Source of the DNA: Pagrus major
Taxonomy: Eukaryota > Chordata > Actinopteri > Spariformes > Sparidae
Length of the DNA stretch: 64,000 nucleotides
Direction: 5' to 3'
NCBI RefSeq assembly: GCF_040436345.1
Contig: NC_133216.1
Location: 243,501 to 307,500, forward strand
The notes below the pieces were generated by a model. It worked only from the letters and a program-made list of their open reading frames with translations. It had not been told where the DNA came from and searched no databases. Below, piece after piece: positions 15,500 to 51,749 of this stretch. Within the stretch, counting starts at the first letter, position 1. Each line of letters opens with the position of its first letter. The translations under genes were made by a program, and so were the position numbers.

Positions 15500-15505
15500 A
15501 TGATC

Positions 15506-21096: not shown

Positions 21097-21097
21097 T

Positions 21098-24284: not shown

Positions 24285-24285
24285 T

Positions 24286-24670: not shown

Positions 24671-24814
24671 CCTCCGCATGACAAGAGGTTACCAACAAAG
24701 TAGTCCCACCTCACTTCTGACATGTCCAACAGCAAATACCAGAGGCAACTGTTGAGGAGAAGTGGAGATCTTTCTGAAAAATGTCATAAGTCAAGCTATG
24801 ATGTCAAAATTTTG

Positions 24815-24902
<88 letters not shown>
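24815..24902 (+). repeat. (GATA)n microsatellite
   Basis: About 22 uninterrupted GATA units. On the minus strand this is a (TATC)n tract directly following a LINE 3' end, so it probably started as the LINE tail. Confidence 0.95.
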
Positions 24903-24903
<1 letters not shown>

Positions 24904-25175: not shown

Positions 25176-25257
25176 TGAATACAGAGGACGTCCAAAACAA
25201 TCATGACATAAGTTAACAAAAAGGTTAATGAATGGATAAAATATTATATTATATATA

Positions 25258-32121: not shown

Positions 32122-33051
32122 TTATAACACCAGAGACTTTAGAAACACATTTCGTATTTTGGACATTTCCATTCCATACATGATAGGATTCAAAAGTGGT
32201 TGAAGTATCATAAAATAGAGAGACAGAATGATTTGCAGCACACTGGGTACACCGGTCATATCAAATCTACTCTGAACTATTTGAAAGCAGCCACCACAAG
32301 TAAAATTCAGAAGAGACACAAGGTGAGGTGTGCAGGTACTGACAGCTTTCTGTCTGGTCTGTTTGGAACCAGAAAAACAAATTTTGAGAATTTTCATGTA
32401 AGAAAACAGGATTGGAAGCAGAGGGACTGAAATGGAGACAGTAGTGGAAAAAAGTCCATAAATGTTATTCACTTTGGTGTCAGAACAGGCCAACTTAACA
32501 ACAAGGTAATTTTGACAATACAAACTGTTCATGATGTTCCCACAAAGTGACAAACGGATGTTTAAGGATAAAGTGATTAAGAATTTCACAAATGAGTATA
32601 ACCATAATAGACAAATAAAGATAACCGCCTTGTTAAATGTCATACGTGTGTTATACTGTAGAGGACAACAGATAGCGAGATATCTGTCATAAGACATGAC
32701 GGCTAAATTGGTAAATTCTACATTTGCATAAGAATACAAACAGAAAATCTGCAGGTAACAAAATGAAGCAGAAACAGTGTGAATGTCAGAGAGAATCTGA
32801 GTCAGAAGGAATGGAAACAACCCTGAACTACCATACAGTCCATTTACAAACAGGCTGCACAGGAACATGTACATAGGTTCATGTAAGCTCCTGTTCATAC
32901 AGATAACCACAATGAGAGATGTGTTTAAAACAACCATAACAACGTAAAGGAAAGCAGTTAGCATAAAGTATAAGTATCTTAAGTTTCCAACCTGCAGATA
33001 GCCTCCAAGAATAAAATAAGATAAAGTTGATAAAGTTGAATTAAACACCAT
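32122..33051 (-). CDS. Odorant receptor, intact, 309 aa (array member 1)
   Basis: First of five closely related ORs (-). It has an NST glycosylation site, RSLHEPMYMFLC, FVNGLYGSSG, MSYDRYLAIC, CQNYLVVKLACSD, CFSGSKQTRQKAVSTCTPHL and LLNPIMYGME. Array-variable sites: Y99; YSYA at 106-109; CLL at 147-149; Y152/K156; STTVSISVPLL at 202-212. It shares a C-terminus (NVFLK...) with array member 2 and 5' flanking DNA with member 4. A promoter with TATA lies 76 bp upstream of the ATG. A short out-of-frame upstream ATG overlaps the start. Intact. Confidence 0.95.
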   Translation of the reverse strand: MVFNSTLSTLSYFILGGYLQVGNLRYLYFMLTAFLYVVMVVLNTSLIVVICMNRSLHEPMYMFLCSLFVNGLYGSSGLFPFLLTQILSDIHTVSASFCYLQIFCLYSYANVEFTNLAVMSYDRYLAICCPLQYNTRMTFNKAVIFICLLWLYSFVKFLITLSLNIRLSLCGNIMNSLYCQNYLVVKLACSDTKVNNIYGLFSTTVSISVPLLPILFSYMKILKICFSGSKQTRQKAVSTCTPHLVSLLNFTCGGCFQIVQSRFDMTGVPSVLQIILSLYFMILQPLLNPIMYGMEMSKIRNVFLKSLVL

Positions 33052-33126
33052 TATGACATTTGTGAATGAAACATGTTCTCATCACCTGCTGCAGTCACTT
33101 CTGTCAGCTGCAGCTACATCTGACGC

Positions 33127-33132
33127 TTTATA
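33127..33132 (-). promoter_or_regulatory. TATA box, OR array member 1
   Basis: GGTATAAAGCGTCAG on the minus strand, 76 bp upstream of the ATG and preceded by GAGGTGGGACTGACC. Conserved in all five array members. Confidence 0.55.
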
Positions 33133-33869
33133 CCTTCACAGAACAGGAAGCACAGCAGGTCAGTCCCACCTCATCAACAGAGACTATACTAGTCTATCAG
33201 CTGACACATGGATTATATGAAAATAATATCGCAATATTTTTAGACCTTATCGTGATACAACATATATATTGATATTCTTGAATGGCCTCAAACTGAGCGC
33301 CAAAATCAAATATCACAATACTTTTGATCAAATACCTCATTATTGATACTATGACAATATTGTAGGTTAGATTATTGGTATTTCCACAAAATATTTTAAA
33401 AATTACATTACTTTAATATAATGCTGCCTTTAAAAGCTGACATTATACAGTCTCATATCACAATGACGACACATATTGTATATATTTCCCAGTCCTAATG
33501 CAGCCTGTAATCAAAAGTTGACTTTTAAACTACATTTAGTCCATTTTTACAATAAGTCCACAATCAGCTTGTTCACTCAGAAATATAAACATAATATCCA
33601 ACATGATATAATAACTACAATAGCAAAGTTCCATCAGTGTGTCCAATCACAACATGCCAGATGATTGTTCATTGATTGGTGTGCTATGCAGAGTCATTTT
33701 TTAAACAGTGATTACTACAGCATAACGTAGGCTAAATATTTCAGGGCTGGGGAACTGGTTAACAACCTTACAGCTGCTTTAATGTTCACAGTGTCATTAA
33801 GAAGGATATAAGATGTTATTCTGAGCTGAGGATTACTGCTTGACTCATGCCTCATCTGATGAATCTTTC
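33133..33869. other. Upstream flank of OR array member 1
   Basis: Up to about 33400 this matches the 5' flank of the OR at 48.7 kb (TGGATTATATGAAAATAATATCGCAATATTTTTAGACC). From 33400 to 33870 nothing is recognised. Confidence 0.45.
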
Positions 33870-34500
33870 TGCGTCACCTGTGCCGGATCATCAGACTGCT
33901 GATCAAGTGCAGCCCTTGCTTGATCCCTCACTTGGGCCTCTTCTCGCAGGCAGGAAAGATCCTGCCAAAGCTCAGAGAGCTATTCTCGGGTCTCTCTAGA
34001 CTGTAACTCAGCTTTACACTGGTAAAGTAGCATGATTTGACCCAAAACACCCGAGATAGTGCATTGTGGCTTTCAGGCAGGGTGATTTACATAGCTGACA
34101 AGCTCATTGATTTTCTCCTCGCAAGTTTTAATGCTGTAGCTATTTAAATAATTTCTCTCCTCTAAGGAGAGGTACATGAGTCCAGTGACCGCATCCTGCA
34201 GGGCTGGGTTGCCTGACTCAGCAGGAGCTTCAGCTCCTGTCTCACGGGGATTCTGGCTACTCATTTCTACTTGAGTAGGAAAGATTAACTCCTCTTGGGT
34301 TAAATTAGTCTACTGAGTGAATTAAACCTGGTTATACTGATGCTAGTGCAAAGGTGAGAGGTGTACCTGTGACTCATGACCTACAGACTGTAGGAAGTTT
34401 AAGGCCAATTGTTCTCCTTACAACCAATCCTGTAAAAGGGTTATTGAGGTGGTCTCTACACCTCAGGAGCAATAGCTATGTAAATTTTGAGTCAGCTTTG
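33870..34500 (-). pseudogene. Repeat-borne gag-like coding segment, copy 2
   Basis: On the minus strand an ATG at 34264 opens MSSQNPRETGAEA...ALQDAVTGL, YLSLEERNYLNSYSIKTCEE and INELVSYVN. Beyond a stop the similarity to copy 1 (4.37-4.69 kb) continues (GQIMLLYQCKAELQ). The leader upstream also matches copy 1 (GCTATTGCTCC...GAGG...ACCACCTCA). A PBS-like site lies upstream at 35.62 kb once the intervening LINE is discounted, which fits LTR-PBS-leader-gag order. Family not recognised. Confidence 0.45.
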
Positions 34501-34527
34501 TTAAACAAACCAAATTACTAACCAACA

Positions 34528-35507
34528 ATGCACGCTACAGTGCTTCATACTCTGTTACACTGTTATGCTGACGACACCCAACTGTTCCTCTCCTTTCCCC
34601 ATCCTCCAATACTCACGTTGCCACACGCATCTTGGAATGTCTGGCAGACATCTCAGCTTGGACAACTGTGCATCATCTCAAGCTCAACCTCAGTAAAACT
34701 GAACTCCTCTTCATCCAAGGGAAAGACTGCCCTCACATGGACCTGGCAGTCACTGTCGAGAACGTCATAGTATCATGACGAATGTGAGAAACCTGGGTGT
34801 GATCCTCGACGACGGACTATCCTGCACTTCCAACATCACCGCAGTGGCCCGATCCTGCAGATTTGCCCTCTACAACATCCGCAGGATCCGGTCTTTCCTC
34901 ACAAAGGACACAACGCAACTCCTGGTCCAATCGCTGGTCATTTCCCACCTGGACTACGGCAACTCGCTCTTGGTTGGACTCCCAGCCTCTGCGACTAAAC
35001 CCTTGCAATGTATCCAGAATGCTGCAGCACGCCTTGTTTTCAATCTACCTAAATTCTCCCATGTGACCCCCCTCCTCCGTGACCTCCGCTGGCTTCCTGT
35101 TGCGGCCCGCATCAGATTCAAGACCATGGTGCTGGCCTTCAAGGCCGTCAATGGAACTGCACCCATCTACCTCCAAACACTGGTCAGACCACACGCCCCA
35201 ACGCAAGAACTTAGCTCTACTACATCAGCTGGCCGGCTGGTACCGCCATCGCTGAGAGCAAACAAAGGCCACTCAGCGAAGTCGCAACTCTTCTCTGTTC
35301 TGATGCCTGAGTGGTGGAACGAACTCCCGACCATTGTCAGTACAGCAGAATTGCTCGCCATCTTCTGCAAAAGACTCAAGACTCACTTGTTCAGACTTCA
35401 CCTCGACCCCGCATAGCATGACAGTACTTATTGTAAGTCGCTTTGGACAAAAGCGTCTGCTAAATGCCCTAAATGTAAATGTAAATGTAAATGTCATACA
35501 CACCACA
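34528..35507 (+). mobile_element. LINE (CR1/L2-like) 3' fragment
   Basis: The fragment begins at the RT catalytic box (CYADDTQLFLSFPH). A frameshift region follows, then a 213-codon frame (34775-35416) with VRNLGVILDDGLS, CRFALYNIRRIRSFL, QLLVQSLVISHLDYGN, IQNAAARLVFN and PLLRDLRWLPVAARI, the full C-terminal domain of CR1/L2-type ORF2. The 3' end reads TAAGTCGCTTTGGACAAAAGCGTCTGCTAAATG with a GTAAAT repeat tail. It is 5'-truncated and inserted inside the LTR-retroelement remnant. Confidence 0.85.
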
Positions 35508-35620
35508 CCCGGCTATATCTGGCTGCTATCAAATTTAAAATTGAAACTTAAAAAAATAATATACTTTTTTATAACTCTGGATTATTGCACGAATATTACA
35601 ATAAAGCTGGTGTAAAGAGG

Positions 35621-36077
35621 CCTCACACGGAGCACCATAGTTGAAATCATGAGGGAATATTAATTGATTATTGACTATTGATTAAGTTATTAATGAAATG
35701 TTAATCAATGAAATGGATGTTATTACTATTTATTAATAATCACCGGAGCACCACCCTGGAATCAAGGATCAATCATCAAATGATATGCCTTTTGTCTCAA
35801 GGCCTGTAGTTTATCAAAAAAATTTAATATTAAAGAAATATCAATAATTAGAGAAATAGAAGGTGTAAATCTGAGCACTGACCGTCTCAACCAGCTGTTA
35901 TTATAACATTAGATTGTGCAAAATAATCACATAAAACTGCTCAGTTATAATCAGCAGTGTTTATTAAAGCTTGTCCTCAATCCATAAACCACTTCCTTTA
36001 ACAAACACTTGCTTACTACAACTAGCAATTCTACAAAACAACATAAGCCAGCACAGATATTTATATGGGTGGAGATC

Positions 36078-36122
<45 letters not shown>

Positions 36123-36330
36123 GCTGATCAGACAGAAACACGACATACTGTGGTCACACAGGGCGGCAAGACTACACAGGCTATCCACCGAGTGGATCAG
36201 CACAAATTGGCTCCTAGAGAGCATAAAAACACTTACAATCAGCGTACAGTGCATTATACCATAGGTAGGACTCTGTGGTCCTTTCACAACAATCATTAAC
36301 AACCTGATCACGGGGACTGTGAAAGATGGT
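35621..36330 (-). mobile_element. LTR-like copy with tRNA-Met-type PBS and (GT)n
   Basis: On the minus strand an AT-rich end is followed by TGGTGCTCCGTGTGAGG (35621-35637; one mismatch to the tRNA-Met complement). Inside are the family blocks GGGTGGTGCTCC, CAGTGCTCAGATTTACACC, an AATAAA-bearing stretch (about 35962) and a (GT)n tract (36080-36120). The outer boundary is uncertain. Confidence 0.5.
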
Positions 36331-36544
36331 ATTATGTACAAAAAGTGAGGAGCCGACGTGGCTTTCGCCGGGAGAAAAAGCAGTTGTTTTACGTCACTGT
36401 TCACGCCCAACTTCGTGCTTCACGTCACGTCACATGTTTACGCCTAACCCAGTGGCAGCTTTTTTGCAAAGGAGGACTATTACACCTCCGTTTCACATAG
36501 ACGAGGCGGCAGATTGCAGCCTTTACCTGGCTGCACATGTGGCG

Positions 36545-36626
36545 CATTTTCTATCTAAAAGGGGCTACTGTAAGTCGCTTTGGACAAAAGCATCTGCTAT
36601 ATGCCCTAAATGTAATGTAATGTAGT
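36545..36626 (+). mobile_element. LINE/SINE 3' tail
   Basis: GGGCTACTGTAAGTCGCTTTGGACAAAAGCATCTGCTATATGCCCTAAATGTAATGTAATG is the same 3' end as the LINE at 34.5-35.5 kb. Only the tail is recognisable. Confidence 0.6.
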
Positions 36627-37231
36627 CTGAACTGCATGGTTCTACTCAGGTGCAGCAGTCTGATGTCATAAGCTCAGTGTGCTGCACTTCTTCTTTGTCT
36701 TCTCTGTTTATTGGTGGATAAGAAACCAAACTTTAAAAGGGGCATGCCACCTGCATTATCTGAGTGTGTATATGCTGCACTTATTAAGTAAATTAAAGCA
36801 ATTTCGAATTTCTTGTTTATCGGCTAGCTGATAATATAAATTTTCCAATATCGGGCAGATAATTTATCAGTCCAATAGTTATTAAGTATCCCTAAAAGAA
36901 TTTCAACACTCTTTATTTACTTCCAGCATTGCATCTCACCTACAACATAACAACATAGCCTGAAGTCAACCATCAACAGAGTTAAACCCCCATCACATTA
37001 TCATCTGCTGAGCTGCTTACCTTTAAATCTACTACATTACTGACGGCACAGACAAACTATCGCTGGCTACACCTTACTAACATAGCAACCATGTGATGTC
37101 TAAGCCACATTCATTTTAACACTATGAGCTCTGTTTTTTCTCTTTGAGAATAGGTAAATATTTCAATGCAAGACATAATATATGTTTTTCTGCTACTTTT
37201 TTCTTCATGTCAACATTAGATATATGACCAG
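36627..37231. repeat. 3' flank of OR array member 2, copy of 31.06-32.12 kb
   Basis: Same ordered blocks as downstream of array member 1 (CTGATGTCATAAGCT..., TAAGCCACATTCATTTTAACACTATGAGC, GAATAGGTAAATATTTCAATGCAAGACATAATATATG), with insertions and deletions. It marks the 3' part of the OR duplication. Confidence 0.6.
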
Positions 37232-38170
37232 TCACCCATTTCTAACACCAGAGAACTTTAGAAACACATTTCGTATTTTGGACATTTCCATTCCATACAT
37301 GATTGGATTCAAAAGTGGTTGAAGTATCATAAAATAGAGAGACAGAATGATTTGCAGCACACTGGGTACACCGGTCATATCAAATCTACTCTGAACTATT
37401 TGAAAGCAGCCACCACAAGTAAAATTCAGAAGAGACACAAGGTGAGGTGTGCAGGTACTGACAGCTTTCTGTCTGGTCTGTTTGGAACCAGAAAAACAAA
37501 TTTTGAGAATTTTCATGTAAGAAAACAGGATTGGAAACAGAGTAACTAAGAAGAAGAGAGCAGTCACAAAAAGTCCATAAATGTTATTCACTTTGGTGTC
37601 AGAACAGGCCAACTTAACAACAAGGTAATTTTGACAATACAAACTGTTTATGATGTTCCCACAAAGTGACAAACGGATGTTTAAGGATAAAGTAATTAAG
37701 AATATCACAAAAGAGAACAACCATAATGCAACAATAAAGATAACTGCCTTGTCAAATGTCATACGTGTGTTATACTGTAGAGGACAACAGATAGCGAGAT
37801 ATCTGTCATAAGACATGACGGCTAAATTGGTAAATTCTACATTGCCATATGTATGCAAACAGAAAATCTGCAGGAAACAAAATGAAGCAGAAACAGTGTG
37901 AATGTCAGAGAGAATCTGAGTCAGAAGGAACGGAAACAACCCTGAACTACCATACAGTCCATTTACAAACAGGCTGCACAGGAACATGTACATAGGTTCA
38001 TGTAAGCTTCTGTTCATACAGATAACCACAATGAGAGATGTGTTTAAAACAACCATAACAACGTAAAGGAAAGCAGTTAGCATAAAGTATAAGTATCTTA
38101 AGTTTCCAACCTGCAGATAGCCTCCAAGAATAAAATAAGATGAAGTTGATAAAGTTGAATTAAACACCAT
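37232..38170 (-). CDS. Odorant receptor, intact, 312 aa (array member 2)
   Basis: All OR motifs are present. Variable sites: F99; HTYG at 106-109; VAL at 147-149; F152/I156; VTALFFLVTLF at 202-212; also N140D (TFDKAV). It shares FVNGLYG, GGCFQ and the NVFLK-type C-terminus with member 1, but its TM4 and TM5 match member 3 and its TM3 matches member 5. The C-terminus is slightly longer (FSGVRNG). The promoter TATA is conserved. Intact. Confidence 0.95.
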   Translation of the reverse strand: MVFNSTLSTSSYFILGGYLQVGNLRYLYFMLTAFLYVVMVVLNTSLIVVICMNRSLHEPMYMFLCSLFVNGLYGSSGLFPFLLTQILSDIHTVSASFCFLQIFCLHTYGNVEFTNLAVMSYDRYLAICCPLQYNTRMTFDKAVIFIVALWLFSFVIFLITLSLNIRLSLCGNIINSLYCQNYLVVKLACSDTKVNNIYGLFVTALFFLVTLFPILFSYMKILKICFSGSKQTRQKAVSTCTPHLVSLLNFTCGGCFQIVQSRFDMTGVPSVLQIILSLYFMILQPLLNPIMYGMEMSKIRNVFLKFSGVRNG

Positions 38171-38245
38171 TATGACATTTGTGAATGAAACATGTTCTCA
38201 TCACCTGCTGCAGTCACTTCTGTCAGCTGCAGCTACATCTGACGC

Positions 38246-38251
38246 TTTATA
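38246..38251 (-). promoter_or_regulatory. TATA box, OR array member 2
   Basis: GGTATAAAGCGTCAG on the minus strand, 76 bp upstream of the ATG. The upstream block is GAGGTTGGACTGACC (one change from members 1, 4 and 5). Confidence 0.55.
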
Positions 38252-38380
38252 CCTTCACAGAACAGGAAACACAGCAGGTCAGTCCAACCTCATCAACAGA
38301 GACTATACTAGTCTCAGCTAACTAATCAGCTGACACATGCTGGGTTGAATTTTCAACCAAAGCATAAGCATAAGTGTACC

Positions 38381-38486
38381 ACTGGGTACACTGGCCATAT
38401 CAAATCTACTATGAAGTAACTGAAAGCAGCAACTGAAAGTAAGATTGGTTGAGGTGTGCAGGTATTTACAGCTTTTTGTCTGGTCA
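38381..38486 (-). pseudogene. Odorant receptor relic, ICL3-TM7 fragment
   Basis: On the minus strand DQTKSCKYLHTSTN, LTFSCCFQLLHSRFDMASVPSG resembles RQKAVSTCTPHL...NFTCGCCFQIVQSRFDMTSVPS with a deletion in TM6. The fragment has no helices 1-5 or 7. It is carried inside the duplicated 5.7-kb unit. Confidence 0.65.
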
Positions 38487-39770
38487 ATTATTGTCTCCAT
38501 TACCTCTGAGAAAGTGGACTTGGAAAGGAAAAGTAACATTAAAATGGGCTTTGCTTGATCAAATATCAGATTGTACAATGACGTTCACAGGAAATTAGCA
38601 CAATCAAATTAGCCAAATGATAGAAGAAATAAAGCATAAAGAAACATTTTTTCTAAGTGAAAAGGTCAATGGCATACTTCACTACAGTGGTGGTCAAAAG
38701 TTTCCATCCACTCATAAAGAACATGTTCATCATGTCAGTCTTCAGTTCCAGTGATTCCTACAGCTCTCATGTTTCTGTGATGAATGAGTGGACCACAAAC
38801 TACTTTGTCACAAAAACATTCATGAAGTTTGGTTCAGTAATTAATTTATTATAGGTCTGCTAGATCAAAAATATACATACAGTAACTTGAACGATCAATT
38901 CTTGTGATCATAGAAAGTTGTGTGAATCAAATGTTCTTTGTAGCATCTTAACTGATTCTGATTGACAACAGCTGGTGACTTTTCTGGGCCCATTTTAATA
39001 GGGCTTGTTTGATACAGTCACTAGACTCAACCACAAACACTACAATGTGAAAGTCTAAAGGGCTCAGCATTGATCTGAAAGAGCACATTATTGATTTGAA
39101 CAAGTCACGGCAGTCACTTGGAACCATTTCAAAGCAGTTACAGGTCCCAACATCAACTGTACAAACAACTGTTTGTACGTATAAAGTTCACAGCACAGTT
39201 GTGCCACTGCCACAATCAAACTATCACCTGCTGCTGAGAGAAAACTGGTCAGGATGGTCATGAGTCAACCAGAAACCATCAAAAAGCAAGTCTGCAATGA
39301 ATCAGAAGCTGCTGGAAGAGTCACAGGTGTCACAGTCCACAGTCAAGTGTTGTTTTACATCAGCATGAGCTGAGAGGCTGCTGTGTCGAGAGAAGCTCTT
39401 GATCCAGACGCAGAACCTTAAAGCTGGACTGAAGTCTGCTGCTGATCACATGGACGAAGAAAAAACCTTCTGGATGAAAACTCTGTGGTCACATGAAACT
39501 AAAACTGAGCTGTTTGACCACAATGAGCAGCAATATGTTTGAAAAGAGAAGGTGAGGCCTTTAACCCCAAGAACACCAGACCTACTGTCCAGCATGGTGC
39601 TGGTAGTATTGTGCTGAGGGGCGGTTCTGCTGCCAGTGGACCTGCTGCTCTAAAGAAAGAAAATGGAATAATGAAGAAGGAGGATCATCTCCAAATTCTT
39701 CAGGAAAACCTAAAATCATCAGAAGAAGATTGGGTCTTGGGTGCAGTTGGGTGTTCCAACAGGATAATGA

Positions 39771-40186
39771 TGCCTGTGGTGCTTCATGCAACATTAATAG
39801 GGAATTTTGGGTTAAATTTGGCTATCAATTATAATTAATGATTGTCAGGGATAATTATTAATTATGATAAATAATAAGATCAAATTTACATTAGATCACC
39901 TCAGGGCACCACCCTTGAAGGAGGGAAAAGATAGCCAATTCACCAAATCAGTCTCATAAAAAGATACTAAACTGTCAATTGGTGACTCTGATTAATAATT
40001 AACTTAATAAGTACAGCCAAAATGACCATAACAGCTGTAATGGTCGAAGGATTTTGGAGTCCTTGACAGAGTCGAGGTTGGCAACATTCACTCTTGTACA
40101 ATATTCAATAGACAGCATGAAGGTTCAAAAGTCTTTTATTTAACACAAAATGAAAACACACAATCTAACTAACATGTACTATATAC

Positions 40187-40259
<73 letters not shown>

Positions 40260-41291
40260 TGGAAGAACAAAAGCAAAATGGTGGCTAGGGTTCAAAGTGC
40301 CACTCTGCATGGCATGGGCTAAGGAAGACTACAAACAAAATGGCTGATCAAAAGGGACTACAAAATGGCTCATCAGTAGGTTGGACTCAGGTCCAAGATC
40401 GTGGATCACCAGTTGTTTCTTTGATAGGAGAGAACAAAGAGACAATGGTGGTGCTCAGACCATTAGCTCACTGATATCACATGTAGTTGTGATATGGTCC
40501 AGGCTGAAGGAGTGTGTGTGTGTGTGTGTGATGCCAGGTTAGAGTAGATGGTTAGTTACATGCAAAGACCCTGAGTCTGTGTGAAGCATAATTCAACTAA
40601 CGTGTTAAAAACAAGTTTAAAAAGTCCTATACTTAGCCGTGCTATGCTATGCTGTGTGCTATCTAGGCCCAGTTCAACGTTACCTTGTTTTGAAGAAAAG
40701 GTTCTGGTGGTTTCTTGGCTGATGAGCCAAGCAGGAGAAGGTTGTAATCCCAGTGCTAAACAGTGCAGTTCTTGCTGTGCAAGGTCTGATGAAAGACAGC
40801 AGGTGGAGGAAACTGGTCGCTCCTGTCCTTTGCAGGGATAGCAGCTCAGTGCTAACTTGCTTCGTGCTCCTTGGATTTTGGAGTTAGCAGGTAAGCTTTG
40901 CGGCGCAGCTGCTGGCGCTAACTAAGATGGAATACTAGCAGGACCTTGCGTCACTGCTGTGAGATGAAGTTCTTTGGGCCTGCTGGAAATGCAGCTGGCA
41001 ACTGTCAGCAGCTTTTAGGCCCAGAAGAATCCAGGAGAAGGTAACTTGGGGGCATGCAGCCCTGTGGAGAAAGAGATGGAGAAGAGCAAGAACAAAGGAA
41101 GGAGTTGGAGTTTTGACTATCTGGTCAGTGGTCTGGTCTGGTCTGTCACCCTGACCAATAGTAGCTCAAAGCTGGGTCTCTTGGCAGTCCTTGTACCTAG
41201 GTGTGAAGACTGGGGAATTCAGGGGAACTAAGTTCAGTTCAGAGTCCATTTTGAAATCCACAGTGAACAACTTCATCTGTGGGGTCCAACA
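39771..41291 (-). mobile_element. LTR-like insert (about 1.5 kb), copy 1
   Basis: The insert separates ...CAGGATAATGA from TCCCAAACACAC, which are contiguous in an intact Tc1. It starts TG and ends CA (TGCCTG...CCAACA). It carries the family blocks GGGCACCACCCTTGAAGG, a TTTATTTAACAC stretch (AATAAA on the minus strand) and a (GT)n tract (40188-40256). No protein-coding domain is seen, so it looks like a solo LTR. I could not see a clean target-site duplication. Confidence 0.5.
40188..40256 (+). repeat. (GT)n microsatellite in LTR-like insert
   Basis: Uninterrupted GT units followed by ACGTGGAAGAACAAAAGC. The same tract occurs in the duplicate at 45926-45989, with a different length. Confidence 0.9.
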
Positions 41292-42982
41292 TCCCAAACA
41301 CACATCAGAAGTGGTAAAGGAATGGATAAATCAGGCTAGATTTGAGGTTTTGGAATGGCCTTCCAAAAGTCCTGACTTGAACCCCATCGAGAACATGTGG
41401 ACTGTGCTAAACAAAACAAGTCTGTGCCATGAAGACAACAAATTTAGTTAAACTTCACCGATTCTATCGCGAGGAGTGGTTAAAAATTCAGCCAGAGGAC
41501 GACCAGAAGCTTGTGGATGGAGATCAAAAGCACCTGAGGTGAAAATGGCCGAGAGACAAAGTAGTTACCCTCATTCCATCACGGAAACATGAGAGCTGTA
41601 GAAATCATTGGAACTGAAGACTGACATGACGAAGACGTTCTTTATGAGTGGATGAGAACTTTCACCATGACAGTAGCTAGCACTGGCAGAATGCTAGCTG
41701 TGAAATATATAGAATGCATGCGTAACATTAGTGGTTCACGCAACGTTTAACAAAATATTTCACAAAACTGGCTGCACACCCGGCAAGCCAACTGCCTCAG
41801 TTATTGGTTGTTATACATTAGTGGTACTGTTTTTGTCTAGATAATGCTCCATGTGCAACCAGACAAAAGCAACTATTCTTTAAAATGAACGGTGTCAACA
41901 CTATTCATCCGAGAAGAAAACAACTTTCTTGCGTTGAACAGTTGGGGCGTACGTCCAAAATTTAGTGGACAGAAAGAAACTGTATGGAAATGAGGCATTC
42001 ATTTTCCTCAACCGCATGAAAAACCTGAAGTGGTATCTGTTCTGGTGAAGACCAACATTTACTCGCCTATGTTTTCAAACTGTGGAAGAGTAACAGCAAG
42101 TTGTCGTTGGTCTTTCTTCTTTTGCCGAGTCAGTTAGTTGAGATGGCAAAAGCATTACACACCTGGGGGAGTATGTGACTCTGCTCACATGTCTAAACAT
42201 TTTGGAGAAAAGATACACACTGAGAGAAGTTATAACCTCTGGTGTATTTACTTTATATTAAGATATTAAATATAGCATTAACTTACCATTAACATTTAAA
42301 TTCATAAAAAGGCAATGAAAATTATTATACAAATTTGAAACATTTCATAATCCCACAATTTTAAAAAGGGAAAACAAGCTAGATATGACGTTGACTCGAA
42401 GGTTTCTGCTTCAATGCTGTGGTTGTGTTGTTGTGGAGGGGTCATTTTGACACTTACACTCAAAAAAGTAAAGTTTTAATTCTGCTTTTAAACAATTTAG
42501 ATTCATGGTGTCCAAAACATTTTTTTTTTAATGTTTTCGTCATTTCTATTATTCAAATAAGTGTATGCACCTCTGTGTGAACATTAGTTCATCAAGGTCT
42601 GTGGCTGCAGCCTCAAACACATGCTAACCAGTTCAGTCAGGAGAAAAACACCTCAGTGAAAAACATTTAGGTGACACAACCTTTGTGTCTGCGTTCATGA
42701 CTATTAGGAATGGAGTGGATTTGATTTTGGAGTGGATTTCTAATACATTATTTTCACCAATATAAATATAAGATGTAAACTTTTCAACATTTTTCAAATT
42801 CTGTTGTTTTAAATGTTATACTGGAACATTGTCTCAATTCACCACTCTCAACATTAACAGTGAGAAAAGACTGTCAGTTTCTTTCATTCAGTTTAGAATC
42901 AGCACATTTCATCTATTATGAAGAATGTACTGACACTTTTATACTGCACTTACAAATAATCATTCTTACCAGGCAACATTTT

Positions 42983-43909
42983 TTAACAGAACAGATGTTT
43001 ACATATTTTTCGTATTTTGGACATTTGTAGTCCATACATGACAGGATTCAAAAGTGGCTGTATGATGAGAAAATACAGAGCAAGAATGATTTGCAGCACA
43101 CTGGGTACACTGGTCATATCAAATCTACTCTGAACTATTTGAAAGCAGCAACCACAAGTAAAATTCAGAAGAGACACAAGGTGAGGTGTGCAGGTACTGA
43201 CAGCTTTCTGTCTGGTCTGTTTGGAACCAGAAAAACAAATTTTGAGAATTTTCATGTAAGAAAACAGGATTGGAAACAGAGAAACTAAGAAGAAGAGAGC
43301 AGTTGCAAAAAGTCCATAAATGTTACTCACTTTGGTGTCAGAACAGGCCAACTTAACAACAAGGTAATTTTGACAGTACAAACTGTTTATGATGTTCCCA
43401 CAAAGTGACAAACGGATGTTTAAGGATAAAGTGATTAAGAATATCACAAAAGAGAACAACCATAATGCAACAATGAAGATAACTGCCTTGTTAAATGTCA
43501 TACGTGTGTTATACTGTAGAGGAAAACAGATAGCGAGATATCTGTCATAAGACATGACGGCTAAATTGGTAAATTCTACATTGCCATAAGAATACAAACA
43601 GAAAATCTGCAGGTAACAAAATGAAGCAGAAACAGTGTGAATGTCAGAGAGAATCTGAGTCAGAAGGGACGGAAACAACCCTGAACTACCATACAGTTCA
43701 TTTACAAACAGGCTGCACAGGAACATGTACATAGGTTCATGTAAGCTTCTGTTCATACAGATAACCACAATGAGAGATGTGTTTAAAACAACCATAACAA
43801 CGTAAAGGAAAGCAGTTAGCATAAAGTATAAGTATCTTGTGTTTCCAACCTGCAGATAGCCTCCAAGAATAAAATAAGATGAAGTTGATAAAGTTGAATT
43901 AAACACCAT
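42983..43909 (-). CDS. Odorant receptor, intact, 308 aa (array member 3)
   Basis: All OR motifs are present. TM segments fall approximately at 27-51, 60-82, 97-120, 141-163, 196-222, 236-260 and 271-294. Variable sites: Y99; YSYG at 106-109; VAL at 147-149; F152/I156; S195; ATALFFLVSLF at 202-212; CF (not CC) after YLAI. The C-terminus is KICKHLFC, shared with members 4-5. The N-terminus has VGNTRYLYF, as in member 4. Promoter conserved. Intact. Confidence 0.95.
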   Translation of the reverse strand: MVFNSTLSTSSYFILGGYLQVGNTRYLYFMLTAFLYVVMVVLNTSLIVVICMNRSLHEPMYMFLCSLFVNELYGSSGLFPSLLTQILSDIHTVSASFCYLQIFCLYSYGNVEFTNLAVMSYDRYLAICFPLQYNTRMTFNKAVIFIVALWLFSFVIFLITLSLNIRLSLCGNIINSLYCQNYLVVKLACSDTKVSNIYGLFATALFFLVSLFPILFSYMKILKICFSGSKQTRQKAVSTCTPHLVSLLNFTCGCCFQIVQSRFDMTSVPSVLQIILALYFLIIQPLLNPVMYGLQMSKIRKICKHLFC

Positions 43910-43984
43910 TATGACATTTGTGAATGAAACATGTTCTCATCACCTGCTGCAGTCACTTCTGTCAGCTGCAGCTACATCTGGCGC

Positions 43985-43990
43985 TTTATA
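43985..43990 (-). promoter_or_regulatory. TATA box, OR array member 3
   Basis: GGTATAAAGCGCCAG on the minus strand, 76 bp upstream of the ATG; the upstream block is GAGGTTGGACTGACC. Confidence 0.55.
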
Positions 43991-44119
43991 CCTTCACAGA
44001 ACAGGAAGCACAGCAGGTCAGTCCAACCTCATCAACAGAGACTATACTACTCTCAGCTAACTAATCAGCTGACACATGCTGGGTTGAATTTTCAACCAAA
44101 GCATAAGCATAAGTGTACC

Positions 44120-44225
44120 ACTGGGTACACTGGCCATATCAAATCTACTATGAAGTAACTGGAAGCAGCAACTGAAAGTAAGATTGGTTGAGGTGTGCAG
44201 GTATTTACAGCTTTTTGTCTGGTCA
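44120..44225 (-). pseudogene. Odorant receptor relic, copy in second unit
   Basis: Identical in structure to the relic at 38.38 kb (SCCFQLLHSRFDMASVPSG on the minus strand), with a single C-to-T/A-to-G level difference visible. It was duplicated passively with the unit. Confidence 0.65.
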
Positions 44226-44423
44226 ATTATTGTCTCCATTACCTCTGAGAAAGTGGACTTGGAAAGGAAAAGTAACATTACAATGGGCTTTGCTTGATCA
44301 AATATCAGATTGTACAATGACGTTCACAGTAAATAAGCACAATCAAATTAGCCAAATGATAGAAGAAATAAAGCATAAAGAAACATTTTTTCTAAGTGAA
44401 AAGGTCAATGGCATACTTCCCTA

Positions 44424-45923
44424 CAGTGGTGGTCAAAAGTTTCCATCCACTCATAAAGAACATGTTCATCATGTCAGTCTTCAGTTCCAGTGATTCCTAC
44501 AGCTCTCATGTTTCTGTGATGAATGAGTGGACCACAAACTACTTTGTCACAAAAACATTCATGAAGTTTGGTTCAGTAATTAATTTATTATAGGTCTGCT
44601 AGATCAAAAATATACATACAGTAACTTGAACGATCAATTCTTGTGATCATAGAAAGTTGTGTGAATCAAATGTTCTTTGTAGCATCTTAACTGATTCTGA
44701 TTGACAACAGCTGGTGACTTTTCTGGGCCCATTTTAATAGGGCTTGTTTGATACAGTCACTAGACTCAGCCACAAACACTACAATGTGAAAGTCTAAAGG
44801 GCTCAGCATTGATCTGAAAGAGCACATTATTGATTTGAACAAGTCACGGCAGTCACTTGGAACCATTTCAAAGCAGTTACAGGTCCCAACATCAACTGTA
44901 CAAACAACTGTTTGTACGTATAAAGTTCACAGCACAGTTGTGCCACTGCCACAATCAAACTATCACCTGCTGCTGAGAGAAAACTGGTCAGGATGGTCAA
45001 GAGTCAACCAGAAACCATCAAAAAGCAAGTCTGCAATGAATCAGAAGCTGCTGGAAGAGTCACAGGTGTCACAGTCCACAGTCAAGTGTTGTAATACATC
45101 AGCATGAGCTGAGAGGCTGCTGTGTCGAGAGAAGCTCTTGATCCAGACGCAGAACCTTAAAGCTGGACTGAAGTCTGCTGCTGATCACATGGACGAAGAA
45201 AAAACCTTCTGGATGAAAACTCTGTGGTCACATGAAACTAAAACTGAGCTGTTTGACCACAATGAGCAGCAATATGTTTGAAAAGAGAAGGTGAGGCCTT
45301 TAACCCCAAGAACACCAGACCTACTGTCCAGCATGGTGCTGGTAGTATTGTGCTGAGGGGCGGTTCTGCTGCCAGTGGATCTGCTGCTCTAAAGAAAGAA
45401 AATGGAATAATGAAGAAGGAGGATCATCTCCAAATTCTTCAGGAAAACCTAAAATCATCAGAAGAAGATTGGGTCTTGGGTGCAGTTGGGTGTTCCAACA
45501 GGATAATGATGCCTGTGGTGCTTCATGCAACATTAATAGGGAATTTTGGGTTAAATTTGGCTATCAATTATAATTAATGATTGTCAGGGATAATTATTAA
45601 TTATGATAAATAATAAGATCAAATTTACATTAGATCACCTCAGGGCACCACCCTTGAAGGAGGGAAAAGATAGCCAATTCACCAAATCAGTCTCATACAA
45701 AGGTACTAAACTGTCAGTTGGTGACTCTGATTAATAATTAACTTAATAAGTACAGCCAAAATGACCATAACAGCTGTAATGGTCGAAGGATTTTGGAGTC
45801 CTTGACAGAGTCGAGGTTGGCAAGATTCACTCTTGTACAATATTCAATAGACAACATGAAGGTTCAAAAGTCTTTTATTTAACACAAAATGAAAACACAA
45901 TCTAACTAATATGTACTATATAC

Positions 45924-45992
<69 letters not shown>

Positions 45993-47373
45993 TGGAAAAA
46001 AAAAAAGCAAAATGGTGGCTAGGGTTCAAACTCTGCATGGCATGGGCTAAGGAAGACTACAAACAAAATGGCTGATCAGTAGGTTGGACTCAGGTCCAAG
46101 ATCGTGGATCACCAGTTGTTTCTTTGATAGGAGAGAACAAGGAGACAATGGTGGTGCTCAGACCATTAGCTCACTGATATCACATGTAGTTGTGATATGG
46201 TCCAGGCTGAAGGAGTGTGTGTGTGTGTGAAGTGATGCCAGGTTAGAGTAGATGGTTAGTTACATGCAAAGACCCTGAGTCTGTGTGAAGCATAATTCAA
46301 CTAACGTGTTAAAAAGAAGTTAAAAAAGTCCTATACTTAGCCGTGCTATGCTATGCTGTGTGCTATCTAGGTGCAGTTCAACGTTGCCTTGTTTTGAAGA
46401 AAAGGTTCAGGTGGTTCCTTGGCTGATGAGCCAAGCAGGAGAAGGTTGTAATCCCAGTGCTGAACAGTGCTGTTCTTGCTGTGCAAGGTCTGATGAAAGA
46501 CAGCAGGTGGAGGAAACTGGTCGCTCCTTTCCTTTGCAGGGATAGCGGCTCAGTGCTAACTTGCTTCGTGCTCCTTGGATTTTGGAGTTAGCTGGTGAGC
46601 TTTGCGGCGCAGCTGCTGGCACTAACTAAGATGGAATACTAGCAGGACCTTGCGTCGCTGCTGTGAGATGAAGTTCTTTGGGCCTGCTGGAAATGCAGCT
46701 GGCAACTGTCAGCAGCTTTTAGGCCCAGAAGAATCCAGGAGAAGGTAACTTGGGGGCATGCAGCCCTGTGGGGAAAGAGATGGAGAAGAGCAAGAGCAAA
46801 GGAAGGAGTTGGAGTTTTGACTATCTGGTCAGTGGGGGGTCTGTCACCCTGACCAATAGTAGCTCAAAGCTGGGTCTCTTGGCAGTCTTTGTACCTAGGT
46901 GTGAAGACTGGGGAATTCAGGGGAACTAAGTTCAGTTCAGAGTCCATTTTAAAATCCACAGTGAACAACTTCATCTGTGGGGTCCCAACATCCCAAACAC
47001 ACATCAGAAGTGGTAAGGAATGGATAAATCAGGCTAGATTTGAGGTTTTGGAATGGCCTTCCAAAAGTCCTGACTTGAACCCCATCGAGAACATGTGGAC
47101 TGTGCTAAACAAAACAAGTCTGTGCCATGAAGACAACAAATTTAGTTAAACTTCACCGATTCTATCGCGAGGAGTGGTTAAAAATTCAGCCAGAGGATGA
47201 CCAGAAGCTTGTGGATGGAGATCAAAAGCACCTGAGGTGAAAATGGCCGAGAGACAAAGTAGTTACCCTCATTCCATCACGGAAACATGAGAGCTGTAGA
47301 AATCATTGGAACTGAAGACTGATATGACGAAGACGTTCTTTATGAGTGGATGAGAACTTTCACCATGACAGTA
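44424..47373 (+). mobile_element. Tc1-like transposon split by an LTR-like insert, copy 2
   Basis: Same layout as copy 1: left repeat CAGTGGTGGTCAAAAG; an open N-terminal relic MNKSRQSLGTISKQLQVPTSTVQ (44835-45107 frame); central relics up to 45509; C-terminal [16 protein letters not shown] (about 47060); right repeat ending near 47373. Dead. Confidence 0.75.
45510..46990 (-). mobile_element. LTR-like insert (about 1.5 kb), copy 2
   Basis: Same insertion point and TG...CA ends as copy 1, with a (GT)n tract at 45926-45989 and a small internal deletion. It was created by the segmental duplication, not by a second insertion. Confidence 0.5.
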
Positions 47374-48677
47374 GCTAGCACTGGCAGAATGCTAGCTGTG
47401 AAATATATAGAGTGCATGCGTAACATTAGTGGTTCACGCAACGTTTAACAAAATATTTCACAGAACTGGCTGCACACCCGGCAAGCCAACTGCCTCAGTT
47501 ATTGGTTGTTATACATTAGTGGTACTGTTTTTGTCTAGATGCTCCATGTGCAACCAGACAAAAGCAACTATTCTTTAAAATGAACAGTGTCAACACTATT
47601 CATCCGAGAAGAAAACAACTTTCTTGCGTTGAACAGTTGGGGCGTACGTCCAAAATTTAGTGGACAGAAAGAAACTGTATGGAAATGAGGCATTCATTTT
47701 CCTCAACCGCATGAAAAACCTGAAGTGGTATCTGTTCTGGTGAAGACCAACGTTTACTCGCCTATGTTTTCAAACTGTGGAAGAGTAACAGCAAGTTGTC
47801 GTTGGTCTTTCTTCTTTTGCCGAGTCAGTTAGTTGAGATGGCGAAAGCATTACACACCTGGGGGAGTATGTGACTCTGCTCACATGTCTAAACATTTTGG
47901 AGAAAAGATACACACTGAGAGAAGTTATAACCTCTGGTGTATTTACTTTATATTAAGATATTAAATATAGCATTAACTTACCATTAACATTTAAATTCAT
48001 AAAAAGGCAATGAAAATTATTATACAAATTTGAAACATTTCATAATCCCACAATTTTAAAAAGGGAAAACAAGCTAGATATGACGTTGACTCGAAGGTTT
48101 CTGCTTCAATGCTGTGGTTGTGTCGTTGTGGAGGGGTCATTTTGACACTTACACTCAAAAAAGTAAAGTTTTAATTCTGCTTTTAAACAATTTAGATTCA
48201 TGGTGTCCAAAACATTTTTTTTTTTATGTTTTCATCATTTCTATTATTCAAATAAGTGTATGCACCTCTGTGTGAACATTAGTTCATCAAGGTCTGTGGC
48301 TGCAGCCTCGAACACATGCTAACCAGTTCAGTCAGGAGAAAAACACCTCAGTGAAAAACATTTAGGTGACACAACCTTTGTGTCTGCGTTCATGACTATT
48401 AGGAATGGAGTGGATTTGATTTTGGAGTGGATTCTTAATACATTATTTTCACCAATATAAATATAAGATGTAAACTTTTCAACATTTTTCAAATTCTGTT
48501 GTTTTAAATGTTACACTGGAACATTGTCTCAATTCACCACTCTCAACATTAACAGTGAGAAAAGACTGTCAGTTTCTTTCATTCAGTTTAGAATCAGCAC
48601 ATTTCATCTATTATGAAGAATGTACTGACACTTTTATACTGCACTTACAAATAATCATTCTTACCAGGCAACATTTT

Positions 48678-49604
48678 TTAACAGAACAGATGTTTATATA
48701 TTTTTCGTATTTTGGACATTTGTAGTCCATACATGACAGGATTCAAAAGTGGCTGTATGATGAGAAAATACAGAGACAGAATGATTTGCAGCACACTGGG
48801 TACACTGGTCATATCAAATCTACTCTGAACTATTTGAAAGCAGCAACCACAAGTAAAATTCAGAAGAGACACAAGGTGAGGTGTGCAGGTACTGACAGCT
48901 TTCTGTCTGGTCTGTTTGGAACCAGAAAAACAAATTTTGAGAATTTTCATGTAAGAAAACAGGATTGGAAACAGAGGGACTACAATGGAGACAGTAGTGG
49001 AAAAAAGTCCATAAATGTTATTCACTTTGGTGTCAGAACAGGCCAACTTAACAACAAGGTAATTTTGACAATACAAACTGTTTATGATGTTCCCACAAAG
49101 TGACAAACGGATGTTTAAAGATAAAGTGATTAAGAATTTTACAAATGAGTACAACCATAATGCAACAATAAAGATAACTGCCTTGTTAAATGTCATATGT
49201 GTGTTATACTGTAGAGGACAACAGATAGCGAGATATCTGTCATAAGACATGACGGCTAAATTGGTAAATTCTACATTTGCATAAGAATACAAACAGAAAA
49301 TCTGCAGGAAACAAAATGAAGCAGAAACAGTGTGAATGTCAAAGAGAATCTGAGTCAGAAGGGACGGAAACAACCCTGAACTACCATACAGTTCATTTAC
49401 AAACAGGCTGCACAGGAACATGTACATAGGTTCATGTAAGCTTCTGTTCATACAGATAACCACAATGAGAGATGTGTTTAAAACTACCATAACAATGTAA
49501 AGGAAAGCAGTTAGCATAAAGTATAAGTATCTTGTGTTTCCAACCTGCAGATAGCCTCCAAGAATAAAATAAGATGAAGTTGATAAAGTTGAATTAAACA
49601 CCAT
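48678..49604 (-). CDS. Odorant receptor, intact, 308 aa (array member 4)
   Basis: All OR motifs are present. Variable sites: F99; YSYA at 106-109; VAL at 147-149; Y152/K156; STTVSIVVPLF at 202-212. It thus combines TM3 and TM5 resembling member 1 with a TM4 start like members 2-3, in a backbone like member 3. Private changes: S88F (ILFDIHTV), R136H (NTHMTF), V37I. Its 5' flank (to about 49960) matches that of member 1 rather than members 2-3. Promoter conserved. Intact. Confidence 0.95.
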   Translation of the reverse strand: MVFNSTLSTSSYFILGGYLQVGNTRYLYFMLTAFLYIVMVVLNTSLIVVICMNRSLHEPMYMFLCSLFVNELYGSSGLFPSLLTQILFDIHTVSASFCFLQIFCLYSYANVEFTNLAVMSYDRYLAICCPLQYNTHMTFNKAVIFIVALWLYSFVKFLITLSLNIRLSLCGNIINSLYCQNYLVVKLACSDTKVNNIYGLFSTTVSIVVPLFPILFSYMKILKICFSGSKQTRQKAVSTCTPHLVSLLNFTCGCCFQIVQSRFDMTSVPSVLQIILSLYFLIIQPLLNPVMYGLQMSKIRKIYKHLFC

Positions 49605-49679
49605 TATGACATTTGTGAATGAAACATGTTCTCATCACCTGCTGCAGTCACTTCTGTCAGCTGCAGCTACATCTGACGC

Positions 49680-49685
49680 TTTATA
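49680..49685 (-). promoter_or_regulatory. TATA box, OR array member 4
   Basis: GGTATAAAGCGTCAG on the minus strand, 76 bp upstream of the ATG; the upstream block is GAGGTGGGACTGACC. Confidence 0.55.
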
Positions 49686-50654
49686 CCTTCACAGAACAGG
49701 AAGCACAGCAGGTCAGTCCCACCTCATCAACAGAGTCTATACTAGTCTATCAGCTGACACATGGATTATATGAAAATAATATCGCAATATTTTTAGACCG
49801 TATCGTGATACAACATATATATATAGATATTCTTGAATGGCCTAAAACTGAGTGCCAAAATCAAATATCACAATACTTTTGACCAAATGCCTCAATATTG
49901 ATACTATGACAATATTGTAGGTTTGATTATTGGTACTTCCACAAAATACTTTAAAACTTAATATTGGACTAATATCTAATGAGGATTTCGATGTTTATAA
50001 AGACATAACTCCTGGAAATAAATGTCTTCTGATATGAGCTTGGATGTGGACTGTATGAATAAGGAAATGAAACGGTTTGTCAGACAGCTGCTTCGGACTC
50101 AGCAGGAGGGGAGGCGTCAGAGAGAAACTTGTGGGACTGTTGAAGAAAACCTGCCAGTGAGCAGGTTGAGTTCACAGAGTCAGTTACAGCATTAACTGAT
50201 CCAGAATTAAAGTTATCTCTCTGCCTGGAGTGGAAAACACAGAGTTTCACTCATTGAAGGCTTAGGGTTGTGGTCTGTAGCTGCAGCCTCAAACATACTC
50301 TAACCAGTTCAGTCAGAGGGCCTGTCATTCCAGATATGTGTATACACCTCAGTGTAAACATTCAGGAGGCACACGAGTTAACTCTGAGTTAATGACTACT
50401 GGGAGTTGTGAAGATATGTATTATTATCACCACTGAAAATATCTTATGTTACTTTTAAACATTATTTAATCTCTGTTGTTTTAAATGTTACACTGGAATA
50501 TTATTTCAATTCACCACTCTCAACATTAACAGTGAGAAAAGACTGTAAGTTTCTTTCATTCAGTTTAGAATCAGCATATTTCATCTATTATGAAGAATGT
50601 ACTGACACTTTTATACTGCACTTACAAATAATCACTCTAACCAGGCAACATTTT
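49686..50654. other. Spacer between OR array members 4 and 5
   Basis: The first ~280 bp match 33.13-33.40 kb. 50260-50654 matches the 3' flanks of members 3 and 4 (GTCTGTAGCTGCAGCCTC, TCACCACTCTCAACATTAACAGTGAGAAAAGACTG). 49990-50250 has no recognised content. Confidence 0.5.
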
Positions 50655-51581
50655 TTAACAGAACAGATGTTTATATATTTTTCGTATTTTGGACATTTGT
50701 AGTCCATACATGACAGGATTCAAAAGTGGCTGTATGATGAGAAAATACAGAGCAAGAATGATTTGCAGCACACTGGGTACACTGGTCATATCAAATCTAC
50801 TCTGAACTATTTGAAAGCAGCAACCACAAGTAAAATTCAGAAGAGACACAAGGTGAGGTGTGCAGGTACTGACAGCTTTCTGTCTGGTCTGTTTGGAACC
50901 AGAAAAACAAATTTTGAGAATTTTCATGTAAGAAAACAGGATTGGAAGCAGAGGGACTGAAATGGAGAAAGCAGTTGCAAAAAGTCCATAAATGTTACTC
51001 ACTTTGGTGTCAGAACAGGCCAACTTAACAACAAGGTAATTTTGACAATACAAACTGTTTATGATGTTCCCACAAAGTGACAAACGGATGTTTAAAGATA
51101 AAGTAATTAAGAATTTTACAAATGAGAGCAACCATAATACACAAATAAAGATAACTGCCTTGTTAAATGTCATACGTGTGTTATACTGTAGAGGACAACG
51201 GATAGCGAGATATCTGTCATAAGACATGACGGCTAAATTGGTAAATTCTACATTGCCATATGTATGCAAACAGAAAATCTGCAGGAAACAAAATGAAGCA
51301 GAAACAGTGTGAATGTCAGAGAGAATCTGAGTCAGAAGGAACGGAAACAACCCTGAACTACCATACAGTTCATTTACAAACAGGCTGCACAGGAACATGT
51401 ACATAGGTTCATGTAAGCTTCTGTTCATACAGATAACCACAATGAGAGATGTGTTTAAAACAACCATAACAACGTAAAGGAAAGCAGTTAGCATGAAGTA
51501 TACGTATCTTAAGTTTCCAACCTGCAGATAGCCTCCAAGAATAAAATAAGATGAAGTTGATAAAGTTGAATTTAACACCAT
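50655..51581 (-). CDS. Odorant receptor, intact, 308 aa (array member 5)
   Basis: All OR motifs except one conserved residue: MSYDRYLAIR replaces MSYDRYLAIC (C128R, TGT to CGT). Variable sites: F99; HTYG at 106-109 (as member 2); CVL at 147-149 and L152/K156 (TM4 nearest member 1); S195; ATAFSISVPLL at 202-212 (first half as member 3, second half as member 1). F3L at the N-terminus. The C-terminus is as in member 4 (KIYKHLFC). Promoter conserved. The upstream out-of-frame ORF is longer here. Open frame, probably functional; the effect of C128R is unknown. Confidence 0.93.
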   Translation of the reverse strand: MVLNSTLSTSSYFILGGYLQVGNLRYVYFMLTAFLYVVMVVLNTSLIVVICMNRSLHEPMYMFLCSLFVNELYGSSGLFPFLLTQILSDIHTVSASFCFLQIFCLHTYGNVEFTNLAVMSYDRYLAIRCPLQYNTRMTFNKAVIFICVLWLLSFVKFLITLSLNIRLSLCGNIINSLYCQNYLVVKLACSDTKVSNIYGLFATAFSISVPLLPILFSYMKILKICFSGSKQTRQKAVSTCTPHLVSLLNFTCGCCFQIVQSRFDMTSVPSVLQIILALYFLIIQPLLNPVMYGLQMSKIRKIYKHLFC

Positions 51582-51656
51582 TATGACATTTGTGAATGAA
51601 ACATGTTCTCATCACCTGCTGCAGTCACTTCTGTCAGCTGCAGCTACATCTGACGC

Positions 51657-51662
51657 TTTATA
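51657..51662 (-). promoter_or_regulatory. TATA box, OR array member 5
   Basis: GGTATAAAGCGTCAG on the minus strand, 76 bp upstream of the ATG; the upstream block is GAGGTGGGACTGACC. Confidence 0.55.
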
Positions 51663-51749
51663 CCTTCACAGAACAGGAAGCACAGCAGGTCAGTCCCACC
51701 TCATCAACAGAGTCTATACTAGTCTCAGCTAACTAATCAGCTGACACAT

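Follow-up and report, generated by a model that had tools for sequence, protein, structure and literature searches.

Mosaic olfactory receptor (OR) genes formed by gene conversion and recombination have already been described (Sharon et al., 1999, cited in PMC1995454). In the ORs of zebrafish, fugu and tetraodon, the ratio of nonsynonymous to synonymous changes (dN/dS) was reported, in the cited part of PMC1325023, to be higher in transmembrane helices (TM) 3 to 6, with lower values for TM2 and TM7 and a predominance of purifying selection, and a possible homogenisation by concerted evolution was proposed for the avian gamma-c ORs (PMC2758906; PMC6969042). Here, a 64-kb stretch of the Pagrus major genome (contig C2, positions 243501-307500; hereafter the window) was analysed, in which eleven intact OR-like open reading frames (ORFs) were found. 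Five of them, M1 to M5, are members of an array on the minus strand, the others being named M6, U1, U2, A, B and C. M1 to M5 are very probably recent tandem copies that recombined ectopically, both by crossing-over and by gene conversion.

As in the mosaic ORs treated in the cited part of PMC1995454, tandem OR genes would have given mosaics here via conversion and recombination; unlike in that part of the account, flanks separate crossover from internal tracts, the tracts lie in TM3 to TM5, and a homogenised TM2 core is present. The M1-M5 cluster shares its TM-wise pattern of constraint with the fish ORs of PMC1325023, whereas that work rests on dN/dS over 136 genes, and neither a silent dip in TM2 nor tract-level exchange is among the results in the portion cited. 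Likewise, the avian gamma-c ORs combine species-specific clades, a suspected homogenisation and variable pocket sites, but in the excerpts cited their homogenisation was deduced from by-species clustering, whereas here its position along the gene is mapped (PMC2758906; PMC6969042). Mosaic ORs by conversion being known already, the aspect of chief interest is the constant TM2 core together with exchangeable pocket helices, a combination absent from the titles and abstract beginnings of the open-licence papers searched. In clustered protocadherins, regional gene conversion homogenises some gene regions while the recognition region stays diverse; the resemblance is in pattern only, the proteins and the gene architecture being unrelated.

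Segment trees of M1 to M5

An earlier note on this DNA had described M1 to M5 as almost identical outside three short regions (residues 106-109, 147-149 and 202-212, in TM3, TM4 and TM5) whose combinations do not follow one tree, and had ascribed them to repeated short-tract gene conversion, possibly kept by selection. The strings it quoted for these residues are all exact, the five coding sequences (CDS) lie where it placed them, and M5 is a mosaic as described, with the TM3 of M2, the C147 of M1, and a TM5 whose first part is that of M3 and second part that of M1. The nucleotide difference among M1-M5 is 3-7%, and near-identity outside the three regions is too strong a description, as 25 of the 38 variable residues lie elsewhere: only 13 of the 38 amino acid-variable codons (codons 1-300) fall within the 18 quoted residues, those beyond the blocks include 99, 152, 156 and 195, and codons 254-302 hold a dense C-terminal split between M1/M2 and M3/M4/M5. 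The genes are listed below with their blocks, the coordinates of which were derived from codon numbers (residues in M1 numbering), and with the flank classes defined in the next section.

32122-33051, minus strand: M1 OR CDS, 5' flank class a, 3' flank class x; TM3 block 32725-32736, TM4 32605-32613, TM5 32416-32448, TM2 core 32764-32916
37232-38170, minus strand: M2 OR CDS, 5' flank class b, 3' flank class x; TM3 block 37844-37855, TM4 37724-37732, TM5 37535-37567, TM2 core 37883-38035
42983-43909, minus strand: M3 OR CDS, a chimera, 5' flank class b, 3' flank class y; TM3 block 43583-43594, TM4 43463-43471, TM5 43274-43306, TM2 core 43622-43774
48678-49604, minus strand: M4 OR CDS, 5' flank class a, 3' flank class y; TM3 block 49278-49289, TM4 49158-49166, TM5 48969-49001, TM2 core 49317-49469
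50655-51581, minus strand: M5 OR CDS, 5' flank class c, 3' flank class y; TM3 block 51255-51266, TM4 51135-51143, TM5 50946-50978, TM2 core 51294-51446

Between -168 and codon 302, a region that all five genes share, 77 sites are variable, of which 49 are informative and 47 of these binary. Among the binary informative sites, 601 of 1081 pairs were incompatible, with a minimum number of recombination events (Rm) of 11, and the pairwise homoplasy index (PHI) test, run in our own implementation, gave p = 2e-4, the floor of 5001 permutations, with windows of 30 to 150 nt. Single-tree simulations (n = 1500, with and without strong rate variation) yielded at most 140 incompatible pairs in alignments that carry fewer informative sites (about 26 vs 47); expressed as a fraction, the simulated maximum was 0.364 against 0.556 observed. 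Silent and upstream sites alone were incompatible in 25 of 55 pairs (Rm 3). The claim that one tree does not fit all segments is further borne out by the five best topologies obtained for five segments, namely ((M1,M2),M5,(M3,M4)) for the N-terminus, ((M1,M4),M3,(M2,M5)) for TM3, ((M1,M5),M4,(M2,M3)) for TM4, where the fewest alternatives were rejected, ((M1,M4),M5,(M2,M3)) for TM5 and ((M1,M2),M4,(M3,M5)) for TM6-7. Significant tracts were also detected, since a GENECONV-like test returned four pairwise fragments with p < 0.05: M3-M5 635-905, M2-M5 213-381, M2-M4 419-454 and M4-M5 830-905.

Incompatible pairs persisted whichever gene was left out; without M3, 311 of 528 pairs were incompatible (PHI p 1e-4). 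Both ends of the coding sequence (codons 1-98 and 213-302; 21 sites) showed 6 incompatible pairs out of 210 and nearly a single split, {M1,M2} versus {M3,M4,M5}, and the middle (codons 99-212) was incompatible with the ends in 417 of 504 pairs. As codons 99-212 are shuffled, each receptor has its own combination at positions that are ligand contacts in the solved OR52cs. Relative to M6, U1 and U2, which differ by 14-18% from M1-M5 (27-31% for A, B and C), derived states are common to M2/M3 at codons 156, 206, 207 and 209, to M2/M5 at 106, to M1/M5 at 208, to M3/M5 at 195, 276 and 277, and to M4/M5 at 155 and 162. Single-tree tests for site selection are unsafe on clusters like this one.

Exchanged flanks, crossing-over and probable conversion tracts

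In addition to the CDS, M1-M5 share about 158-168 bp of upstream sequence, with TATAAA at -81. Beyond this stretch, three classes of 5' flank can be told apart, a in M1 and M4, b in M2 and M3, and c in M5, and two classes of 3' flank, x in M1 and M2, and y in M3, M4 and M5. Because all four combinations ax, bx, by and ay are present, flanks were exchanged across the gene. This exchange of flanking markers, together with a tandem duplication whose breakpoint lies in homology, is what unequal crossing-over leaves behind.

37227-42967, unstranded: first copy of the 5.7-kb tandem duplication, with M2 and its 5' intergenic region
42968-48662, unstranded: second copy of the 5.7-kb tandem duplication, with M3 and its 5' intergenic region

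These two copies diverge at 54 of 4195 intergenic sites (1.3%), and at 30 of 248 sites (12%) in the bin that covers the 3' gene end, M3 being M4-like there. M3 is thus a chimera, an M2-like 5' flank being joined to an M4-like 3' flank by intragenic unequal crossing-over; one such crossover, with an M2-like and an M4-like gene as partners, suffices to explain it. Crossovers of this type are insufficient for the gene middles, since the coding ends are nearly tree-like and the middle conflicts with them. Broken OR 3' remnants lie directly upstream of the promoter stretches of M2 and M3 in the same orientation (38342-38617 and 44081-44356, minus strand).

In M1-M5, conflicting segment trees come with co-carried silent sites and with tract ends inside the gene, and tracts with both ends intragenic are best read as gene conversion, a double crossover giving the same result. 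The repeated short-tract exchange put forward in the earlier note is supported for TM3, TM4 and TM5, as well as by the replicate pairs and the cassette described below, and part of the pattern comes from unequal crossing-over.

The cluster extends beyond the array: a search of the whole genome (785,883,843 bases, 25 contigs) placed 34 intact relatives, with 60-100% identity to M1, at 157-473 kb of C2, fragments besides, and further OR matches on C2, C9 and C13. Six recent, mutually independent gene pairs from the C2 cluster served as replicates. Differences were clustered in four of them (scan p 0.0002-0.001), in TM3 for U1/U2 and g459/g467, in codons 106-126 for g251/g187 and in TM7 for g226/g229. 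When the flanks of U1/U2 were included, 10 of the 21 differences fell inside 60 of 1861 nt (p 5e-5). In g221/g229, differences peak in TM4. Over codons 130-167, g221 differs from gene C, 37 kb away, at 3 of 114 nt, compared with 126 of 774 elsewhere, and from its sister g229 at 30 of 114 nt, compared with 30 of 774 elsewhere. Most simply, g221 is the recipient of a TM4 cassette. The window coordinates of these tracts are as follows, that of the cassette being taken from the alignment of the window ORs.

20764-20820, minus strand: TM3 tract of U1, codons 93-111 (CDS from ATG 20146-21096)
23952-24008, minus strand: TM3 tract of U2, codons 93-111 (CDS from ATG 23334-24284)
15884-15997, plus strand: TM4 cassette of gene C (gene C at 15500-16459), common to g221 at C2:221963, outside the window

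U1 and U2 belong to a separate tandem duplication (19763-25969), with 98.4% identity over 1869 bp and extra flank copies at 94-97%.

A constant TM2 core

In the 34 intact C2 relatives, codons 46-96 (153 nt, hereafter the TM2 core) are nearly identical, silent sites included. The median difference from the cluster consensus is 2 of 153 nt in the core, against medians of 18 to 35 in five other segments, one of which (codons 5-55) overlaps it. Over 210 pairs representing 21 lineages, silent difference was 0.053 in the core vs 0.346 in the rest, with no pair reversed (0 of 210), and amino acid difference 0.079 vs 0.343. Among all 50-codon windows, the core has the lowest silent difference (permutation p 2e-4). 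When the genome was searched with the M5 core, 36 matches had E <= 0.001; each of them lies at 157-473 kb of C2, and by position they correspond to 34 intact genes, a fragment and a pseudogene. The core being about 99% identical in genes otherwise up to about 30% different, the cause of its constancy is testable. No silent-site-homogenised TM2 segment in ORs was found among the titles and abstract beginnings of the open-licence literature, in searches made mostly with other aims.

Applied to the 34 genes, our GENECONV-like test gave 126 significant fragments in 122 pairs, whose coverage peaks at 94 around codons 61-70 and is 0 to 1 over codons 111-210. This test presumes uniform variability along the gene, so that a constrained TM2 would also yield significant fragments, which are therefore no proof of conversion there. 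Nothing shows recombination to be aimed at the pocket, these fragments being densest in TM2. GC content at third codon positions was 0.39-0.55 in codons 45-94; as it is equally high at 165-194, it is not diagnostic of GC-biased conversion. The stretch of the DRY motif, codons 119-124, is also identical in all 34 C2 genes, silent sites included.

Pocket residues and competing explanations

An AlphaFold2 model built from an 11-row alignment of window proteins was discarded (mean predicted local distance difference test score 37.6), so that the pocket assignment rests on alignment to OR52cs and on generic numbering with C98, R123, W150 and P210 as anchors. On this basis, the variable residues 106, 109, 206 and 207 correspond to 3.33, 3.36, 5.46 and 5.47, which are octanoate contacts in OR52cs, where 5.39 and 6.59 meet the carboxylate, according to the cited part of PMC10703812. 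G199 (5.39) and R262 (6.59) are constant across M1-M5; among the eleven window ORs compared, R6.59 is found in 11 and G5.39 in 10, which hints at acid ligands. Head contacts are variable in 0 of 3 cases and tail contacts in 4 of 6, this split having been made post hoc. It is plausible that M1-M5 would differ in their odour responses, and five near-identical natural receptors differing at known pocket positions form a set for probing odour-tuning residues.

Recombination could supply variants, with the pocket combinations driven or maintained, and distinct pockets retained, by positive selection; we regard this as possible but doubtful. In its favour, 4 of the 11 named OR52cs contacts are variable vs 34 of 289 other positions (p 0.038), and 7 of 24 vs 31 of 276 with a wider pocket list (p 0.020); moreover, in the six other recent pairs the pocket helices hold 36 of 75 amino acid-changing codons vs 10 of 48 silent ones, with a pooled pN/pS of 0.61 (0.40-0.98) vs 0.23 in the rest, and dN/dS in TM5 of M1-M5 is 1.98. 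However, this pooled ratio is below 1, the enrichment is not significant (p 0.12, wider list) among sites that vary in other window ORs, and TM6 contacts are invariant except 254 (6.51). In codon models, the dN/dS ratio omega was 1.03, 0.86, 0.40, 1.98 and 0.30 for the five segments, and in no segment was it significantly above 1, the 1.98 of TM5 having a twofold log-likelihood difference of 1.58. The suggestion that the blocks are kept by selection thus found no support in dN/dS by segment. Silent differences per site in the six other recent pairs were 0.096 for pocket helices, 0.052 for the remainder and 0.020 for TM2; the pocket helices are thus mainly under weaker constraint, and exchanged. 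As for the constancy of the TM2 core, a constraint at the DNA level, i.e., a regulatory or recombination element within the CDS, would fit too, and would account for its sharp edges at codons 45/46 and 95/96, the different codons held by recurring amino acids at different positions, and a silent difference that neither decays with distance (0.045 in 79 pairs 150-400 kb apart) nor depends on orientation (0.053 and 0.054). This is nevertheless rather unlikely. Amino acid and silent differences drop jointly in the core, as recency predicts; the RNA fold gave no signal (z 0.04), and a scan of 50655-51800 (1146 bases) against Rfam at a lax threshold returned three sub-threshold snoRNA-type hits, none near the gathering score. 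Four genes lie 10-18 nt from the core consensus, mostly through amino acid-changing codons, a frameshifted pseudogene at 9288 keeps 93% identity over 73 nt of core vs 79% over the 117 nt before it, and a comparable TM2 dip is absent from the 11 ORs of the C9 cluster at 34.8 Mb. Homogenisation by conversion remains the first choice for the core, given the joint drop and the pseudogene carrying it.

Several observations weigh against ectopic recombination as the explanation of the whole pattern. When M2 was left out, the PHI test was not significant (p 0.37), yet 140 of 210 pairs were incompatible. The two informative upstream sites conflicted with the coding ends in 26 of 42 pairs, two of the six other recent pairs had no significant clustering (p 0.26 and 0.12), and the best genome matches inspected provided no donor outside the array for the M1-M5 blocks. 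The lack of distance decay in the core is unlike the prediction of simple local conversion, and the block combinations are known from assembled sequence alone. As to the silent divergence of the blocks, the limits of which were picked after data inspection, silent-only codon differences were frequent in TM4 (28 of 116), weak in TM5 (6 of 105, one codon) and absent in TM3 (0 of 136); an early reading of all three blocks as islands of old silent divergence was weakened accordingly, the signal being chiefly in TM4. Silent codons were nearer to amino acid-variable codons than random (p 0.0006), with p 0.10 in a rotation test. Since TM3 has no silent-only difference, shared single substitutions by parallel change are possible for the TM3 block taken by itself. 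Point substitutions that arose in parallel or by convergence along a single true tree, with no exchange at all, would agree with the few TM3 differences but are extremely improbable for the whole, in view of the maximum reached in the single-tree simulations, the conflict among silent and upstream sites, the exchanged flanks and the 114-nt cassette of g221 and gene C. It is also very unlikely that near-identical copies or two haplotypes were joined or mixed during assembly or polishing: copy identity is high and the intergenic divergence of M2 and M3, being within a range seen between alleles, could be allelic, but the conflict survives the removal of M3, the five CDS are open, the window has no N, the assembly has 25 contigs for 786 Mb, and other gene pairs display the same pattern.

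Two processes of ectopic recombination among members of the cluster are thus visible in the sequence. Intragenic unequal crossing-over yielded the exchanged flanks, the 5.7-kb duplication and the chimeric M3, and short tracts, best read as conversion, swapped segments of TM3, TM4 and TM5, shuffling codons 99-212 while leaving the coding ends near one tree. Per-receptor residue combinations at 3.33, 3.36, 5.46 and 5.47 result, on the constant frame of G5.39 and R6.59. Pocket diversity would then arise from untargeted recombination with weak constraint at pocket sites, whereas other parts of the gene, TM2 above all, would be strongly homogenised or constrained. Flanks and tracts provide separate evidence that crossover and conversion both create new receptors in one array. 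A reading of the cluster as a cassette system on an evolutionary time scale, in which the 153-nt TM2 core, nearly identical in both orientations, serves as a pairing or regulatory core around which TM3-TM5 are swapped, seems improbable. If true, it would provide a set of receptors that share one ligand class and are tuned by the shape of the ligand, head-group residues G5.39 and R6.59 being kept constant and floor residues 3.33, 3.36, 5.46 and 5.47 shuffled.

As regards the rest of the window, the Pfam family 7tm_4 was matched above the curated cut-off by the five ORs scanned (M1, M2, M5, U2 and A), to which the remaining six align. A subtelomeric location of the cluster was dropped, the telomere repeat being absent from the first 10 kb of contig C2. 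The ORF at 34775-35416 (plus strand) gave no match in the Pfam scan; we take it to resemble a fragment of a long interspersed nuclear element. Partial OR pseudogenes lie at 1501-2079 (plus), 9288-9491 (plus) and 13369-13509 (minus), and two ORFs at 26345-28950 (minus) match reverse transcriptase and endonuclease-reverse transcriptase families.

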